From: a virus
Length of the DNA: 29,885 nucleotides
IMG/VR virus record: IMGVR_UViG_3300035201_000291
Coordinates: 1 to 29,885 of that record
Direction: 5' to 3' (one strand)
The number at the start of each line of letters is the position of its first letter. Within the stretch, counting starts at the first letter, position 1. The notes below the pieces were generated by a model that was not told the DNA's origin, did no database searches, and saw nothing but the letters and a program-made list of their open reading frames with translations. The translations under genes and the position numbers were made by a program. This document shows, one piece after another, positions 9,601 to 29,885 of this stretch.

Positions 9601-11259
9601 TTAAGTGGTTCTGGTACTGGAATGATTGGTAATGTTACTGTAAATAATGGACAAATATCTGCGGTAACAGTTACAACGGGTGGACAGAACTTTGCTCTTG
9701 GAGATACTGTAGGAGTTGGTACTCTTGGTCTTGGAAATGGTAGTGGAGCCGTACTTGCAGTTGGAGTTGTTACTTCAAATAATACTCTTCTCCTTGAAAA
9801 TATTCAAGGTTCATTTAATACAGGTGTAGGCACTATTACGTATAATAATGGTTCTAACGTTGTTGTAGTTGGTAAGGGAGTTACAGTTAATTCCTTTGAT
9901 ATTGATTCCGCTAGTGATGGTTTACACTTTAAAGTTAGTCATCGTGCTCATGGAATGCACGCTTTCAATAACTTAGTAACTATTAGTCGTGTTGAATCTG
10001 ATGTTCCTGTAACTACACTTACTGCAGATTTATCGAACACTTCAACTGATGATATTTCTGTCAGTTCTTCTTCTAACTTTAGTGAGTTTGAGGGAGTTGG
10101 AGTTGGAACTACAAATTATGGATACTTAGAAATAGGTGATGAAATTATTTCTTACACAGGAACTTCTTCTGGTTCTATTACAGGTATTACAACTAGAGGT
10201 GTTGATGCATCAGGTTCGTTCTCATATCCTTCAGGAACTGAAGTTAGAAAGTATGAACTTGGTGGAGTATCTCTCAGAAGGATTAATAGAACTCATGATA
10301 TGAATGATCCTGCGGTAACTATCGCAAATGCAAAAGATCTTGATTACTATCATCTTAAAGTTGATATGAACAGCAATGGTTCAGATAGAAGTGGTGGTTC
10401 TTTATCTAATAGGTACTTTACATCAACGAAACGAACAGGCGGAAAACGTATTACTGCATCTCAAAATATGCAGTTTGAAACATTAACGCCTAATGTTCAA
10501 ACAATGACACCTCCAGGTACTGGTGTTTCTGCAAGAGTTAGAACTATTTCTGCTACTAGTATGGGTGGTTCTGAAGAGTCCTTTGTTGATCAAGGTTTTG
10601 ATAATGTGGATATCGGTGGACAGAATCCATTTGATACTCCAAGAATGATTGCTTCTAAGGTGAATGAGAATAACAAAGTTACTAATCTTCCTGGTAATAA
10701 GTCTATGACTTTCGAAGTTAATATGACTAGTACTGATGCAGACCTTTCACCAGTTATTGACTTGGATCGTGTAAGTTTAATTACAACTACTAATAGAATT
10801 AATAATCCAGTATCCGACTTTGCTAAGGATCGTAGAATAGATGTTACTGGCGATGATCCTTGTTCTGCAACATATGTTTCTAAGTTAGTTACTCTACAAA
10901 ATCCAGCAACATCATTGATGGTTGAATTTGCTGCTATGAGACCTATTGCAAGTGATATTAGATGTTTCTATAAGATTATTACTGAGGGTTCTACTGAAAA
11001 TAGTCTAGCACAAAACTTTGAACCATTCCCAGGTTATACTAATATAGACCAGAATGGAAAGATTAAAAATGTTGCTGATAATAATGGACTTCCTGATACT
11101 AAGGTTACTTCAAGTATAGGTGGTCAGTTTAAAGATCACACATTCAATTCTCGTGAACTTCCACCATTTAGTAAGTTCCAAATCAAGATTGATATGGTTG
11201 GAACTAATCAAGCAACACCACCATTGATTAAAGAACTTAGAGCTATTGCACTTGCATAA
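3676..11259 (+). CDS. Giant DUF4815-type baseplate/tail structural protein
   Basis: This 2527-residue protein begins MPQETNLNVNPYFDDFD and continues with VLFKPGTPVQARELSTLQS, the N-terminal signature I associate with DUF4815 proteins of marine myoviruses. Visible regions: DUF4815-like N-terminus (about 1-350); SGA-type modules near residues 95-120 (GERSGVTATV) and 490-520; a conserved block near 940-1020 with YYDYSYIRRKKDFG; a helical segment near 1120-1160 (FTMADIGRLEERLKNVEYY); FYTFFDGVDVTQYM near 1465; a block at about 1708-1815 starting YDPLAQTF and ending WISRMGE; GSGY repeats near 1948-2030; and a GDEIISYTG module near 2115-2190. I see no enzymatic motif. It follows gp8 by six bases and overlaps the next start by one base (TAATG). 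It probably sits at the baseplate rim or carries fibres, and stands where T4 has genes 9-12; that role is inferred. Confidence 0.8.
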   Translation: MPQETNLNVNPYFDDFDSAKNYYKVLFKPGTPVQARELSTLQSILQNQIEQFGTHFFKEGAKVIPGNLTYDNNFFCVEIESTFLGIPVSLYLNQLKGIRITGERSGVTATVRKVLTSEESERGNITLYVKYEKSGSEDFSTEKFFDGENLITDRDIIYGLNIIAQNETFGITIASGASSTGSAMSIGEGVYFVRGCFVQNHSETLILDQYNNRPSYRIGFDVAEEFITADEDPDLNDNASGFTNFAAPGADRLKITIQLSKKDLQDKNDQNFIEIARVENGTLQSFVKDTQYNLIRDTLAARTYDESGDYYVKPFELFAKESLNDQVGNKGIYTSEQKTQQGGTPSKDLMLIQASPGKAYVKGYDIQKIASTFIDVEKPRTTKKIEQESVNYSTGAPIFVNNVFGSPSLGIGTTATVSLVSTRRAGLTTVGIAPGGEEVGVARLYDFKAQSASYVNEATKYEVRLIDIKTFTKIKVGIAITSVADSDHIEGARSGAQGFVYGTTGANKTDLTLVDTIGKFVKDESILVNGVAQGRVITKVSDYGMNDVKSFKSSVGVSTFEADMVLDGARSLSNQVSGSMTLVWGAGNTGTITAAGNNFAGIITSGNIISYPVAGKTVPTFNKITGVSTDGTTVNVVGITTVPNVMDGGVPTGTTNVTGLTIRRSLFNVNDNTITTPLNHKNIASLDVTNTTVQFRKQYSGINVSSNSFTSPDAGTNLFFQPFDEERYFISYADGSIEPLQASQMSLSANKKTVTFVGLSKASGKANLFATVLKGTVVTKKKNLNEANTLVINRSKLTASGIGTNTLNDGLTHSNVYGTRVQDKFISLQVPEAVSLAAVYESNDSGDPDLPSLVLGGYSGPSGNNTDLIIGERLTGVESNAVGMVVERPNTVNVGIVPLNSTEFIVGETVKSNKSGVAALVGATTRGDRNVTEQFMLGVNDRANYYDYSYIRRKKDFGEPKNRLKIVFKNFFVNSDDDGDFFSASSYPEVSKDLIPMSNMYNLRSSDLIDIRPRVKTYDTTTSVSPFNFKSRIFSDDGASIPDPLVPDESIIVSYDYYLGRSDRLFLDINGTWEYIKGTPADIPTIPQPVGDAIEVATIDLAPYVYDLKNDVMITRTKHKRFTMADIGRLEERLKNVEYYTRLSLLESDTKNMSITDANGLNRFKSGFFVDNFKTHDAHQIAHPDFSASIDAKNAYLRPGHYTTAIDLIVGSQSLIGIGTTANPTLDINFVTDIDGSNVKKTGRLVTLDYNEKKFLEQGYASRVENVNPFLIVFYAGDIKLNPDSDIWMDTKRLDANVIRRTSEYDNVIAQLGIDTQTGLSEMDWGAWETDWSSEKITTRTEVVTEKLDGPISPQQLKDMGVTANLANHQNVNYIPDYGMVKALNNGNWVPRGGGMFTDVTLTHRQEIQDIEITDHQSREGIQYRVTPVETEESLGDRMISRDRIPFMRARNIEVTNTRMKPRTKFYTFFDGVDVTQYMTPKLLEITMDSGLFQTGETINGFNASTVTAGGTPEFRCRLATPNHKYGPYNDPTDVFGLNPYVNNATLPASYSTSSSLLNVDTFSLASEVTGTFYGHVTKGMKIKGQTSGAEATISDVRMISDSIGNLICSFNIPNPNVEANPRWETGTKTLRMTTSSVNSEIGGTVTGSAETNFYAQGELDTIQENVLSIKTPQIERLTTEEQRVIQDRIVSRPGERQTDIGSAVQYYDPLAQTFRVEEATGIFLTSVDVFMRDKDAELPLTLQVRTVETGLPTSKILPFAIVVKEPKDVNISEDASIPTRFTFESPVYLAGENEFAIVLVTPAENYNCWISRMGEIDISTANLPDEQQVMISQQPYLGSLFKSQNGTTWDPSQYEDMKFNLYKAEFNTDTPGTARFYNPDLAEGNGQIPTLQNNAIEVLSRKAVVGLGTTFSTPAGFVPGVTVTQEGNLYASATLTGVAGIASVGAQTFTIVNPGIGYTPQTGSLAYTNIPLPTLSGSGTGMIGNVTVNNGQISAVTVTTGGQNFALGDTVGVGTLGLGNGSGAVLAVGVVTSNNTLLLENIQGSFNTGVGTITYNNGSNVVVVGKGVTVNSFDIDSASDGLHFKVSHRAHGMHAFNNLVTISRVESDVPVTTLTADLSNTSTDDISVSSSSNFSEFEGVGVGTTNYGYLEIGDEIISYTGTSSGSITGITTRGVDASGSFSYPSGTEVRKYELGGVSLRRINRTHDMNDPAVTIANAKDLDYYHLKVDMNSNGSDRSGGSLSNRYFTSTKRTGGKRITASQNMQFETLTPNVQTMTPPGTGVSARVRTISATSMGGSEESFVDQGFDNVDIGGQNPFDTPRMIASKVNENNKVTNLPGNKSMTFEVNMTSTDADLSPVIDLDRVSLITTTNRINNPVSDFAKDRRIDVTGDDPCSATYVSKLVTLQNPATSLMVEFAAMRPIASDIRCFYKIITEGSTENSLAQNFEPFPGYTNIDQNGKIKNVADNNGLPDTKVTSSIGGQFKDHTFNSRELPPFSKFQIKIDMVGTNQATPPLIKELRAIALA
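9517..9770 (+). repeat. GSGY-type beta repeats in the giant protein
   Basis: Repeat units include FTIVNPGIGYTPQTG and ISAVTVTTGGQNFALGD, followed by Gly-rich GVGTLGLGNGSG linkers. They follow the same strand, GxGY, turn, strand pattern as in gp8 and gp14. Confidence 0.55.
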
Positions 11260-27534: not shown

Positions 27535-28932
27535 ATGTTCTCCGCTGAACATCTGCAGGAGAAGTGGTCACCCCTTCTAGAACATGACGGTCTAGATCCT
27601 ATTAAGGATTCCCATCGGAAAGCTGTAACCGCAGTCCTGCTAGAAAATCAAGAAAAGTTTTTAAGAGAAGAGAAGTCCTTCCTTGCTGAAGGCCCAACAA
27701 TGGGTGTTGGAAACGGTGGATACACTGGTTCTGCAACTGCAACTGGACCTGTTGCCGGTTTCGACCCTGTTCTCATCTCTCTAATCAGACGTTCAATGCC
27801 AAACCTGGTCGCTTATGACCTGGCTGGTGTTCAACCAATGAATGCCCCAACTGGACTCATCTTTGCGATGCGTTCACGTTATGTTGATGGAACCAACGCC
27901 GACCGCCGCTTAGGTACAGAAGCTCTGTTCAACGAAGCAGATTCTGCCTTCTCTGGTCAGTCTTCGGCCTTCAACAATACCGATGGATTCGTAAGTGCTT
28001 CCACTGGTTTGGGTACTACCGCACAGTCTGGTACTAACCCAGGTGCTCTTAACCCATCTACTAATGCAACTCAGGTTGCTTATGATGTAGGTCAGGGCAT
28101 GAGAACTGATGACGCTGAGAACTTAGGTTCTACTGCGGCTCAACAGTTCAACGAAATGGCATTCTCTATCGAGAAAGTCACCGTTACCGCTAAGTCAAGA
28201 GCTCTGAAAGCTGAGTACTCACTAGAACTCGCTCAAGACCTTAAGGCTATTCACGGTCTAAACGCAGAGGCAGAACTCGCTAACATCCTCAGCACTGAGA
28301 TACTTGCTGAGATCAACCGCGAAGTTATCCGTACTATCTACAAGGTTGCTGAGTCTGGTGCTCAGGTCAACACTGCTAGTGCCGGAACGTTCAACCTCGA
28401 CGTTGACAGTAACGGTCGTTGGAGCGTTGAGAAGTTCAAGGGTCTGCTATTCCAGATTGAAAGAGACGCCAACGCAATCGCACAGAGAACTCGTCGCGGG
28501 AAGGGTAACATCATCCTTTGCTCTGCTGATGTTGCTTCTGCTCTAACAATGGCTGGTGTACTAGATTACACTCCTGCATTGAATGCAAACTTGAATGTAG
28601 ACGACACTGGTAACACCTTCGCAGGTGTCATCAATGGTAAGTATCGTGTCTACATTGACCCATACGCCGCTAACAGTGCTGCAAATCAGTACTACGTTAT
28701 TGGTTACAAGGGTAGTTCACCTTACGATGCTGGATTGTTCTATTGCCCATACGTTCCACTACAGATGGTACGTGCGGTCGGACAAGACACCTTCCAACCA
28801 AAAATTGGCTTTAAAACTCGTTATGGCATGGTTGAGAACCCATTCTCACAAGGTACTACACAAGGTTCAGGAACTCTTACTGTTAATAGCAACCGCTACT
28901 ACAGAAGGGTCACCGTTAGCAACCTTATGTAA
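27535..28932 (+). CDS. 23: Major capsid protein gp23
   Basis: This 465-residue protein is the T4-like major capsid protein (T4 gp23, 521 residues). Family blocks include PNLVAYDLAGVQPMNAPTGL, then IFAMRSRY, the EMAFSIEKVTVTAKSRALKA segment, and YSLELAQDLKAIHGLNAEAE. The N-terminal region is removed in maturation; FLAE/GP after E52 fits the gp21 rule and would leave 413 residues. A GLGTTAQSG stretch near residue 160 shows that even the capsid carries the local GxGTT style. Third codon positions are markedly richer in C than in most of the window, as expected for a very abundant protein. GAGGA at 27521-27525 is the ribosome site. No late octamer lies directly upstream. Confidence 0.98.
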   Translation: MFSAEHLQEKWSPLLEHDGLDPIKDSHRKAVTAVLLENQEKFLREEKSFLAEGPTMGVGNGGYTGSATATGPVAGFDPVLISLIRRSMPNLVAYDLAGVQPMNAPTGLIFAMRSRYVDGTNADRRLGTEALFNEADSAFSGQSSAFNNTDGFVSASTGLGTTAQSGTNPGALNPSTNATQVAYDVGQGMRTDDAENLGSTAAQQFNEMAFSIEKVTVTAKSRALKAEYSLELAQDLKAIHGLNAEAELANILSTEILAEINREVIRTIYKVAESGAQVNTASAGTFNLDVDSNGRWSVEKFKGLLFQIERDANAIAQRTRRGKGNIILCSADVASALTMAGVLDYTPALNANLNVDDTGNTFAGVINGKYRVYIDPYAANSAANQYYVIGYKGSSPYDAGLFYCPYVPLQMVRAVGQDTFQPKIGFKTRYGMVENPFSQGTTQGSGTLTVNSNRYYRRVTVSNLM

Positions 28933-28960
28933 GAAAGAAGTTAATATACTTCTATTTCCA

Positions 28961-28988
28961 AGAGTCTCCTTCGGGGGACTCTTTTTTT
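28961..28988 (+). terminator. Intrinsic terminator after the capsid gene
   Basis: The stem AGAGTCTCC / GGGGACTCT (nine pairs, one G-T) closes a TTCG tetraloop at 28970-28973 and is followed by a run of seven T (28982-28988). This is a textbook Rho-independent terminator, 28 bases after the gp23 stop. Confidence 0.93.
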
Positions 28989-28995
28989 ATAAATA
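28988..28995 (+). promoter_or_regulatory. Late promoter TATAAATA fused to the terminator T run
   Basis: A perfect octamer whose first T is the last base of the terminator T run. It would restart transcription near base 29001 for the small genes downstream. Confidence 0.6.
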
Positions 28996-29002
28996 AATAC
29001 GA

Positions 29003-29018
29003 TCTCACTACAGTGAGA
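29003..29018 (+). promoter_or_regulatory. Short perfect hairpin at the predicted transcript 5' end
   Basis: TCTCACT, AC, AGTGAGA forms a seven-pair perfect inverted repeat with a two-base centre. It starts within a few bases of the start point expected from the octamer at 28988. A 5'-terminal hairpin could stabilise the message; alternatively the palindrome could be a protein-binding site. Confidence 0.55.
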
Positions 29019-29042
29019 CAAACACAAAACAAAACATAACAC

Positions 29043-29050
29043 AAGGAGGT
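29043..29050 (+). promoter_or_regulatory. Full-strength ribosome binding site
   Basis: AAGGAGGT is nearly the full anti-Shine-Dalgarno complement, ending four bases before the ATG at 29055. It is the strongest site in the window; many structural genes here have weak ones. Confidence 0.8.
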
Positions 29051-29054
29051 TATT

Positions 29055-29291
29055 ATGGCTGCAAATCCATACGAACTGCGATGGGAAGTTTATACCCGTG
29101 CAGAAGATTTATTAAGAACTAGATTCGATTCAGAGGTTACTGCTTGGGACCAGAAGAAAGAAGCAGGAATTGATCCAGGAACTTATCCAACTTTTCCATC
29201 AGACGAAGATATATACGCTGCAGCACAGCGTATGAAAGATTGGTATGAAAATTCGGAGTGCCGATTTGGCTTACTGCAAATGGAGAAGTGA
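29055..29291 (+). CDS. Small conserved hypothetical protein with NPYELRW motif
   Basis: This 78-residue protein starts MAANPYELRWEVYTRAEDLL and is mostly helical, with two helices (about 5-35 and 50-70) joined by a Pro/Gly-rich turn (GIDPGTYPTFPSDEDI). I recall small ANPYE(L/I)R proteins in many marine T4-like phages, sometimes in several copies per genome, with no function known to me. Helical content and acidic/aromatic composition would suit a small regulator or host-protein binder; this is inference. It has its own promoter octamer, a 5' hairpin and a very strong ribosome site, which suggests high expression. The next small ORF begins one base after its stop. Confidence 0.75.
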   Translation: MAANPYELRWEVYTRAEDLLRTRFDSEVTAWDQKKEAGIDPGTYPTFPSDEDIYAAAQRMKDWYENSECRFGLLQMEK

Positions 29292-29292
29292 T

Positions 29293-29418
29293 ATGGAAAC
29301 GGTACTACCTCTTAAAAATATTGAGACCGTATGTAGTAATAAAAAGAATGCTGAATTATTTTTAATACTTCAAATGCATTTACTATATCCTCATCTTTAT
29401 CGAAAAAATAAAAAATGA
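29293..29418 (+). CDS. Possible 41-residue microprotein
   Basis: A short ORF from ATG at 29293 to TGA at 29416-29418, beginning METVLPLKNIETV and ending YRKNKK. The start lies one base after the preceding stop, with GGAG at 29282-29285 seven bases upstream, so translation by coupling is plausible. It ends 14 bases before the stem of an intrinsic terminator. The middle is hydrophobic (AELFLILQMHLLYPHLY) with a basic end, which could be an amphipathic or short membrane-associated helix. I do not recognise it, and its short length leaves real doubt. Confidence 0.5.
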   Translation: METVLPLKNIETVCSNKKNAELFLILQMHLLYPHLYRKNKK

Positions 29419-29432
29419 TTAAACCATCACAC

Positions 29433-29458
29433 GACCTCCTTTTTGGAGGTCTTTTTTT
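29433..29458 (+). terminator. Intrinsic terminator
   Basis: Perfect seven-pair stem GACCTCC / GGAGGTC around a TTTTT loop, followed directly by seven T. It closes the small two-gene unit that starts at 29055. Confidence 0.92.
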
Positions 29459-29459
29459 G

Positions 29460-29467
29460 TCTAAATA
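29460..29467 (+). promoter_or_regulatory. Late-promoter-like octamer directly after terminator
   Basis: TCTAAATA, seven of eight matches to TATAAATA, begins two bases after the terminator T run and ends 23 bases before the start of the synthetase-like gene. This repeats the arrangement at 28961-28995. Confidence 0.45.
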
Positions 29468-29490
29468 AATTAGTTTTGTCAAGAATTAAA

Positions 29491-29885
29491 ATGACCGCAC
29501 TGATTGACCCAAAAAAGTATAGTGAGACCGTTGACCTATTGAGGTCATTTTTTTTGTCTAAAAACTTTCTTGAAGTCCATACTCAGAATAGATTAAGTAT
29601 TCTTGCTGCATGTGAAGATCCAGAAACAGTAGCAACATATGAATATAATGGTAATGTATGGCCACTACCACAGACAGGTCAAATGTGGTTAGAATATGAA
29701 TTACTTTCCAACCCTGATGCAGCAGGGTTTTTTTGTGTCTCAACTTCATATAGGGCAGAACCTAACCCTGTAGAAGGAAGACATGAAACTATTTTCCCAA
29801 TGTTTGAGTTTGAAATGAAGGGAGGTGTAGAAGAACTTAAACAAATGGAGATTGAACTATGTGAATGGTTAGGAATACCTTTAGA
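29491..29885 (+). CDS. Class II aminoacyl-tRNA-synthetase-like protein (Asp/Asn type), 3' end outside window
   Basis: At least 131 residues are present and the frame runs off the window. Residues 16-31 (LLRSFFLSKNFLEVHT) resemble class II motif 1, which normally ends in Pro; here Gln follows. VWPLPQTGQMWLEYELL (57-72) parallels the LPQSPQxxKQ segment of AspRS/AsnRS. CVSTSYRAEPNPVEGRHETI, then FPMFEFEM (82-109) parallels motif 2, FRxE ... RH ... EF ... E. The protein begins almost at the catalytic core, so the N-terminal anticodon-binding OB domain of true AspRS/AsnRS is missing. That would suit a paralogue making an aminoacyl adenylate, such as an asparagine-synthetase-like or protein-modifying enzyme. 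I recall similar proteins in cyanophages. Motif 3 lies beyond the window. Confidence 0.75.
   Translation, partial: MTALIDPKKYSETVDLLRSFFLSKNFLEVHTQNRLSILAACEDPETVATYEYNGNVWPLPQTGQMWLEYELLSNPDAAGFFCVSTSYRAEPNPVEGRHETIFPMFEFEMKGGVEELKQMEIELCEWLGIPL
29532..29555 (+). terminator. Terminator-like hairpin inside the synthetase-like coding sequence (first)
   Basis: TGACCT / AGGTCA, six perfect pairs around an ATTG loop, is followed immediately by eight T (29548-29555). It covers codons 14-22. The protein motif continues in frame across it, so coding here is real. Whether it terminates transcription is unknown; ribosomes would mask it during active translation. Confidence 0.45.
29710..29734 (+). terminator. 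Terminator-like hairpin inside the synthetase-like coding sequence (second)
   Basis: AACCCTG / CAGGGTT, seven perfect pairs around a six-base loop, merges into seven T (29728-29734, the first two of which also pair in the stem). It lies in codons 74-82, just before the motif 2 segment, and the frame continues through it. Confidence 0.4.

Follow-up and report, generated by a model that had tools for sequence, protein, structure and literature searches.

Transfer RNAs for asparagine that take part in normal decoding have U33 and a purine at position 37, and we know of no tRNA that feeds pyrimidine synthesis. The pair U1-A72 is recognised by bacterial GatCAB (PMC4206432). In the cyanophages P-SSM2 and P-SSM7, a gene that GenBank names 'tRNA ligase' has been listed as a sporadic gene, T4-GC 194, with no function given (PMC3037559). 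We found nothing in the papers searched on the family of this gene, on a cyanophage AsnRS or on tRNA-dependent pyrimidine synthesis. Here we have analyzed a relative of it located at the end of the IMG/VR virus record IMGVR_UViG_3300035201_000291, a fragment with structural genes of a T4-like cyanophage that was taken at its whole length of 29,885 nucleotides (the window in what follows).

The gene runs from an ATG at 29491 to the end of the contig at 29885 (plus strand) and is truncated at its 3' side; the open frame and the homologues identify its product as the N-terminal part (131 residues out of about 265) of a class II catalytic core of the AsnRS/AspRS type. A longer frame started by TTG at 29443 is mechanical, and it is the ATG (MTALIDP...) that is conserved in the relatives. 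The preliminary description, made from the letters of the window, had pointed to three segments, and all of them are in the frame: a motif 1-like one (LRSFFLSKNFLEVHTQ, 29539–29586, plus strand) in which the class II Pro is replaced by Gln, the segment LPQTGQ (29665–29682, plus strand), which aligns in an AsnRS-like GQxxxE context lacking the AspRS-type Lys, and a motif 2-like one (GFFCVSTSYRAEPNPVEGRHETIFPMFEFE, 29725–29814, plus strand), with strands predicted at residues 79–88 and 101–110 of the homologue L002; the motif 2-like SYRAEPNPVEGRHETIFPMFEFE is likewise present in the frame. The gene had also been placed beside phage structural genes, as is the case, with the major capsid protein gp23 encoded upstream (27535–28932, plus strand; context only). 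P-SSM7, a relative sharing the gene order around gp23 with the window, has gp23 in the same place followed by three tRNAs and then the core gene. None of these three tRNAs was found in the window between gp23 and the core gene (28933–29490), where there are a small ORF (29056–29292) and terminator-like stems. The contig ends upstream of the part coding for motif 3, and because it ends first, the window's own copy of the tRNA that follows the gene in most phage relatives (see below) is absent, lost beyond the end.

Across the same 131 residues the relatives are 86–95% identical to the fragment (86–89% for the 'tRNA ligase' of P-SSM2 and P-SSM7), which belongs to phrog_29758, a family of unknown function (E 1.4e-84). 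In viruses, relatives occur at no fewer than 596 loci, and no plasmid homologues were found. The match of PF00152 to the window fragment alone was weak (E 1.4e-4, below the cut-off), and full-length relatives were over the cut-off at E 4e-15. The AF2 model of L002, which is 95% identical (mean pLDDT 91.5), had AsnRS 1x54 as its best PDB match in Foldseek, with AsnRS and AspRS on top and the archaeal asparagine synthetase AS-AR 3rex lower among the matches, in agreement with the AsnRS/AspRS-derived class II fold proposed before. Full-length relatives (about 265 aa) start at the core, without the N-terminal OB anticodon-binding domain either there or elsewhere in the gene, again as described. 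Two checks suggested at that time, for a motif 3 downstream and for a C-terminal extra domain, gave a GGGIGxxR at the C-terminus in the relatives, with the proteins stopping just after it, and no such domain in the full-length ones. At 43% identity over the structural alignment, a protein of Pithovirus LCPAC304 (BFVD A0A481Z9R2) points to a possible relative in eukaryotic giant viruses.

We have compared the family with AsnRS, AspRS, LysRS, EpmA and AsnA. It lacks the AspRS Lys and keeps, in the manner of AsnRS, GQxxxE and the motif 2 Glu, together with an E...R pair before motif 3, positions that presumably help to set Asn versus Asp. Compared with the class IIb synthetases, the changes are Pro to Gln in motif 1, Glu to Ile, Leu or Met in motif 2, His to Arg in PHxG, and Asp or Glu to Thr or Gln before the Arg of motif 3, this last being near the Ser of AsnA. 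The Gln of motif 1 noticed in the window is real, and in the alignments all phage and bacterial members have it, at a position occupied by Pro in the AsnRS, AspRS, LysRS, EpmA and AsnA sequences compared. Active-site residues are near-invariant across the cyanophage clade, the bacterial members and the phage members linked to pyrimidine (pyr) genes. All scores against curated models were below the cut-offs: 21.7 bits vs. 342.6 for NCBIfam asnS, 23.1 vs. 389 for the NCBIfam asparagine synthetase and 15.7 vs. 286.9 for EpmA/PoxA. Because the signature positions differ and these cut-offs were failed widely, we have not filed the family as AsnRS, AsnA or EpmA. An asparagine synthetase, AsnA or AS-AR-like, making Asn for other uses would agree with the free-standing core, the AsnA-like motif 3 and the presence of 3rex among the structural matches, but the model score far under the cut-off (23 vs. 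389 bits), and the pyr operons and pyrB absence that it leaves unexplained (see below), make this a reading to which we give little credence.

Directly 3' of the core gene, most phage relatives have what ARAGORN calls a 'tRNA-Asn (GTT)' of 83–94 nt. Within the cyanophage clade it starts 7–12 bp past the stop codon (once 90 bp) at 72/72 loci, these being all the loci with enough downstream sequence, and 70/79 loci of a second, more divergent set of phages likewise have it after the gene, mostly at 4–11 bp and with CCA encoded. L283, where the match is a different tRNA, was not counted among the 70. Over the sample of 142 copies (100 distinct), the GUU anticodon, U1-A72 and G73 are found in 142/142. 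The molecule is type II, with a long variable arm, a total of 82–108 nt, a Leu-like body and intact acceptor and T stems. As both sides covary in 20 of its 25 base pairs, with none of 500 shuffles matching this figure and slid controls collapsing, the tRNA is real. The Rfam tRNA model gave 52.8 bits on the P-SSM7 copy, and a covariance model made from the phage tRNA cross-matches tRNA-Leu. It does not look like tRNA-Asn in the features tested (a type I short variable loop, U33 and A37): position 33 is U in 126/142 and C or G in 16/142, and position 37 is U or C, mostly U, in 126/142 and A in 16/142.

That this could be an ordinary hitchhiking phage tRNA, unconnected with the enzyme, appears very improbable. 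Transfer RNAs do occur at mobile regions of T4-like cyanophages (PMC3037559) and P-SSM7 has three further ones upstream, but here the same kind of tRNA sits in the same 3' position in 142 loci, with constrained identity positions, and the genome contexts differ (beside gp23 in P-SSM7, among metabolic genes in P-SSM2). As the main rival to the metabolic role that we propose below we see a private translation pair, in which a mini-AsnRS would charge the type II tRNA next to it with Asn and so keep the Asn decoding of the phage insulated from host control or host tRNases. The proximity of gene and tRNA in 72 loci of the one clade and in 70/79 of the other speaks for such a pair, as do the invariant GUU, the U1-A72 and G73 that match tRNA-Asn, and the AsnRS-like substrate positions. 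We nevertheless consider it unlikely, since position 37 (U/C in 126/142) and position 33 (C/G in 16/142) are unlike those of a normal decoding tRNA-Asn, class IIb positions are altered in all three motifs, and the bacterial members lack an adjacent tRNA and are placed among pyr genes. A core without anticodon domain, next to a tRNA with a frozen anticodon and drifting neighbours, would fit reading by a host synthetase better than reading by the ribosome, and as part of our overall proposal the tRNA is perhaps metabolic, not mainly decoding. Four-base decoding by GUUU was discarded, because the loop has 7 nt and position 37 varies when the copies of the second phage clade are added. The annotation of P-SSM2 puts its tRNA-Asn (PSSM2_199) about 2 kb off the site given by ARAGORN directly after the gene (L083, 8813–8900 vs. 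10825–10910), and the 'tRNA-Leu (UAA)' of P-SSM7 (L082, 7871–7943) has only 73 nt and lacks the long variable arm that a tRNA-Leu should have.

We have found similar cores in bacteria. A genome scan gave 125 loci, the best 80 of the 125 at 49–70% identity, many of them in Patescibacteria, Bacteroidota, Rickettsiales and Gammaproteobacteria. Those that carry the tRNA (L087, L088, L096, L105 and L164) are probably phage contigs in MAG bins. No adjacent tRNA was found at chromosomal bacterial loci, and since a dedicated tRNA is not recognisable in most bacterial carriers, this molecule is not essential to the family; searches for a bacterial partner in trans (R1/R2) gave mostly tRNA-Leu. A tree built from 123 proteins placed the phage clade linked to the tRNA within the bacterial members, which suggests that the tRNA joined later. 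At L122, L137, L138 and L145 (Weeksellaceae/Flavobacteria) copies of the core adjoin PEP carboxykinase, and a short gene resembling PEP carboxykinase lies near the core on the phage-like contig L105 (8234–9424, minus strand).

We also came across giant tRNA-like RNAs of 112–154 nt in Chitinophagales, in tandem arrays of 1–5 copies (L231 7614–8049, minus strand; L232 7277 and 7512; L235 7489–7956; L241 7961–8682; others in L201–L229). They have U1-A72, G73, a Leu-like D arm, a loop YTGTCTC and a huge variable arm with GGGATAAAC...GGCTAACC; ARAGORN reported none of them, and Rfam was silent on the three loci tried. Although they resemble the phage tRNA, we have set them aside as partners of the enzyme, as they occur in many genomes without it. 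Just upstream of the array, 6 of the 13 giant-tRNA loci examined have a protein of about 120 aa (L232 5752–6117, L233, L234, L237, L239 and L241 7317–7694); the two tested are SET-domain proteins, and in the phage contig L164 a SET protein comes after the tRNA.

The genomic context of the bacterial cores is pyrimidine synthesis. A pyrD, pyrE or pyrF neighbour was found within 6 kb at 26/72 chromosomal loci belonging to several phyla. The order core-pyrF-pyrE-pyrD(-prs) forms an operon in Midichloriaceae and Rhodospirillaceae, Pasteurella atlantica has core-pyrF-pyrE with pyrD alongside, and in Aureispira/Chitinophagales pyrD and pyrE-F adjoin the core; pyr neighbours were checked with Pfam in Myxococcota, Dependentiae, Gammaproteobacteria and Patescibacteria. 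The carrier genomes (n = 29) had pyrB above the cut-off in 1/29, a real carB in 3/29 and pyrC above the cut-off in 1/29, and the control genomes had pyrB and carB in 14/14. Weaker 'pyrC' matches (200–260 bits) were allantoinase or dihydropyrimidinase in the six checked. The exceptions are G035, a MAG with pyrB, carB and pyrC besides the core gene, and G005 and G007, which have carB. In 399 Chitinophagales genomes, with the core gene in 11 and pyrB in 355, the latter was absent from 11/11 carriers vs. 33/388 non-carriers (Fisher P 9e-12, ignoring phylogeny and with many MAGs in the comparison). All 121 Pasteurellaceae sampled lack pyrB, with or without the core gene, so P. atlantica adds operon evidence only and not independent support for this contrast.

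The same linkage appears in phages. We found pyrD-core-tRNA-pyrE in loci L290 and L329, core-pyrE in L312, and pyrD-core in L087, L245–L249, L255, L256 and L258, with the tRNA too where this was examined (L087, L255, L256, L258). In L290 and L329 the pyrD-like products gave DHO_dh matches (E 1e-16 to 1e-17); the phage pyrE-like ones were found by their similarity to operonic bacterial proteins, and their Pfam signal is weak or absent. No pyr gene is local to the core in the cyanophage clade of the window, so the pyrimidine role of this clade would rest on homology, i.e., on the shared near-invariant active-site residues.

This family context hints at a new way to start the synthesis of DNA and RNA building blocks. 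Carriers keep PyrD, PyrE and PyrF, are mostly without the three steps leading to dihydroorotate, and have the core gene adjoining, and for these reasons we propose that the core is an AsnRS paralogue, catalytic core only, serving pyrimidine biosynthesis and not ordinary translation, and enabling a bypass of CarAB, PyrB and PyrC to dihydroorotate; we give this about an even chance of being right. The preliminary description had offered amidation of Asp, modification of a tRNA or protein, or inhibition, which are not the best fit given the dedicated GUU tRNA, the pyr-gene context and the absence of pyrB, pyrC and carB, all of them invisible in the window; amidation of Asp does survive as a live rival. 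New beyond it are the dedicated phage tRNA and the pyrimidine-gene context in bacteria and phages.

As for the exact chemistry, we put forward tentatively, as possible but doubtful, the reaction L-Asn + CO2/HCO3- + ATP to L-dihydroorotate + AMP + PPi. Asn holds ring atoms N1, C6, C5, C4 and N3, with only C2 missing and coming from CO2/HCO3-, and with five of the six ring atoms in Asn, the combination of Asn, CO2 and ATP would be the shortest route for an adenylating core that binds Asn. The class II site, binding Asn and ATP, would adenylate an N-carboxy group, and the side-chain amide of Asn would then close the ring to give dihydroorotate. The same context and gene absences would also suit an ATP-dependent replacement of PyrC and/or PyrB, in which the beta-carboxyl of carbamoyl-aspartate or Asp is adenylated and the ring closed, and the motif 3 GGGIGxTR resembles the GGGIGQSR of E. 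coli AsnA, which activates the Asp beta-carboxyl. However, carB is missing in most carriers, so there would be no known source of carbamoyl phosphate, and the substrate positions are AsnRS-like, without the AspRS-type Lys; we hold such a replacement to be distinctly improbable.

Returning to the bypass from Asn, the phage tRNA may be charged, and perhaps amidated, by host enzymes, perhaps as a source of asparagine, or alternatively may be a substrate or cofactor of the core enzyme. In a fully tRNA-dependent version it would be aspartylated by a non-discriminating host AspRS (through G34-U35-U36 and G73) and amidated by host GatCAB (through U1-A72) to Asn-tRNA, from which the core would take Asn and join it with CO2 to make dihydroorotate. 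With all its steps taken together, this start of pyrimidine synthesis bypassing CarAB, PyrB and PyrC seems to us quite unlikely. The benefit for the phage would be pyrimidines made outside the regulated entry steps of the host.

If true, the bypass would be a second entry into one of life's oldest pathways, without carbamoyl phosphate, shared by abundant ocean phages with uncultured Patescibacteria, intracellular Rickettsiales and free-living Bacteroidota. The ability of genomes lacking carAB, pyrB and pyrC to keep and use pyrD, pyrE and pyrF would then be explained, and an aaRS paralogue, possibly together with a tRNA, would have a new function. Should the chemistry differ, the pairing of a synthetase core in phages and a private tRNA, its anticodon frozen and positions 33 and 37 drifting, would still call for an explanation and is directly testable.

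Among known systems, AsnRS (class IIb; PDB 1x54, 2xgt) is alike in its catalytic fold, with the best structural and profile matches, and in GQxxxE, RxE, the motif 2 E and the conserved E...R before motif 3; unlike it, the family lacks the OB anticodon domain, has four signature positions altered and is found in a genomic context of pyrimidine synthesis. E. coli AsnA and archaeal AS-AR are also free-standing class II cores working in metabolism, with a GGGIGxSR-like motif 3, but with AsnA the sequence similarity does not reach beyond the stretch of motif 3 (30 columns in hhalign), and the family differs from both in having no Lys in the QSPQ region and in its pyr context. The EF-P lysine ligase EpmA/PoxA/GenX is another aaRS core without anticodon domain, with different substrate positions and a model score of 16 bits vs. 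a cut-off of 287. PyrB and PyrC (aspartate carbamoyltransferase and dihydroorotase) occupy the pathway slot that the core seems to fill, but their folds are unrelated to it and they are mostly missing in the bacterial carriers. Finally, tRNA-dependent metabolism (Glu-tRNA to ALA, or Asp-tRNA(Asn) to Asn-tRNA by GatCAB) provides the precedent of a tRNA as metabolite carrier; the phage tRNA differs in its type II, Leu-like body, and shares with the GatCAB system the U1-A72 pair that the bacterial enzyme reads (PMC4206432), present in all 142 phage tRNAs.
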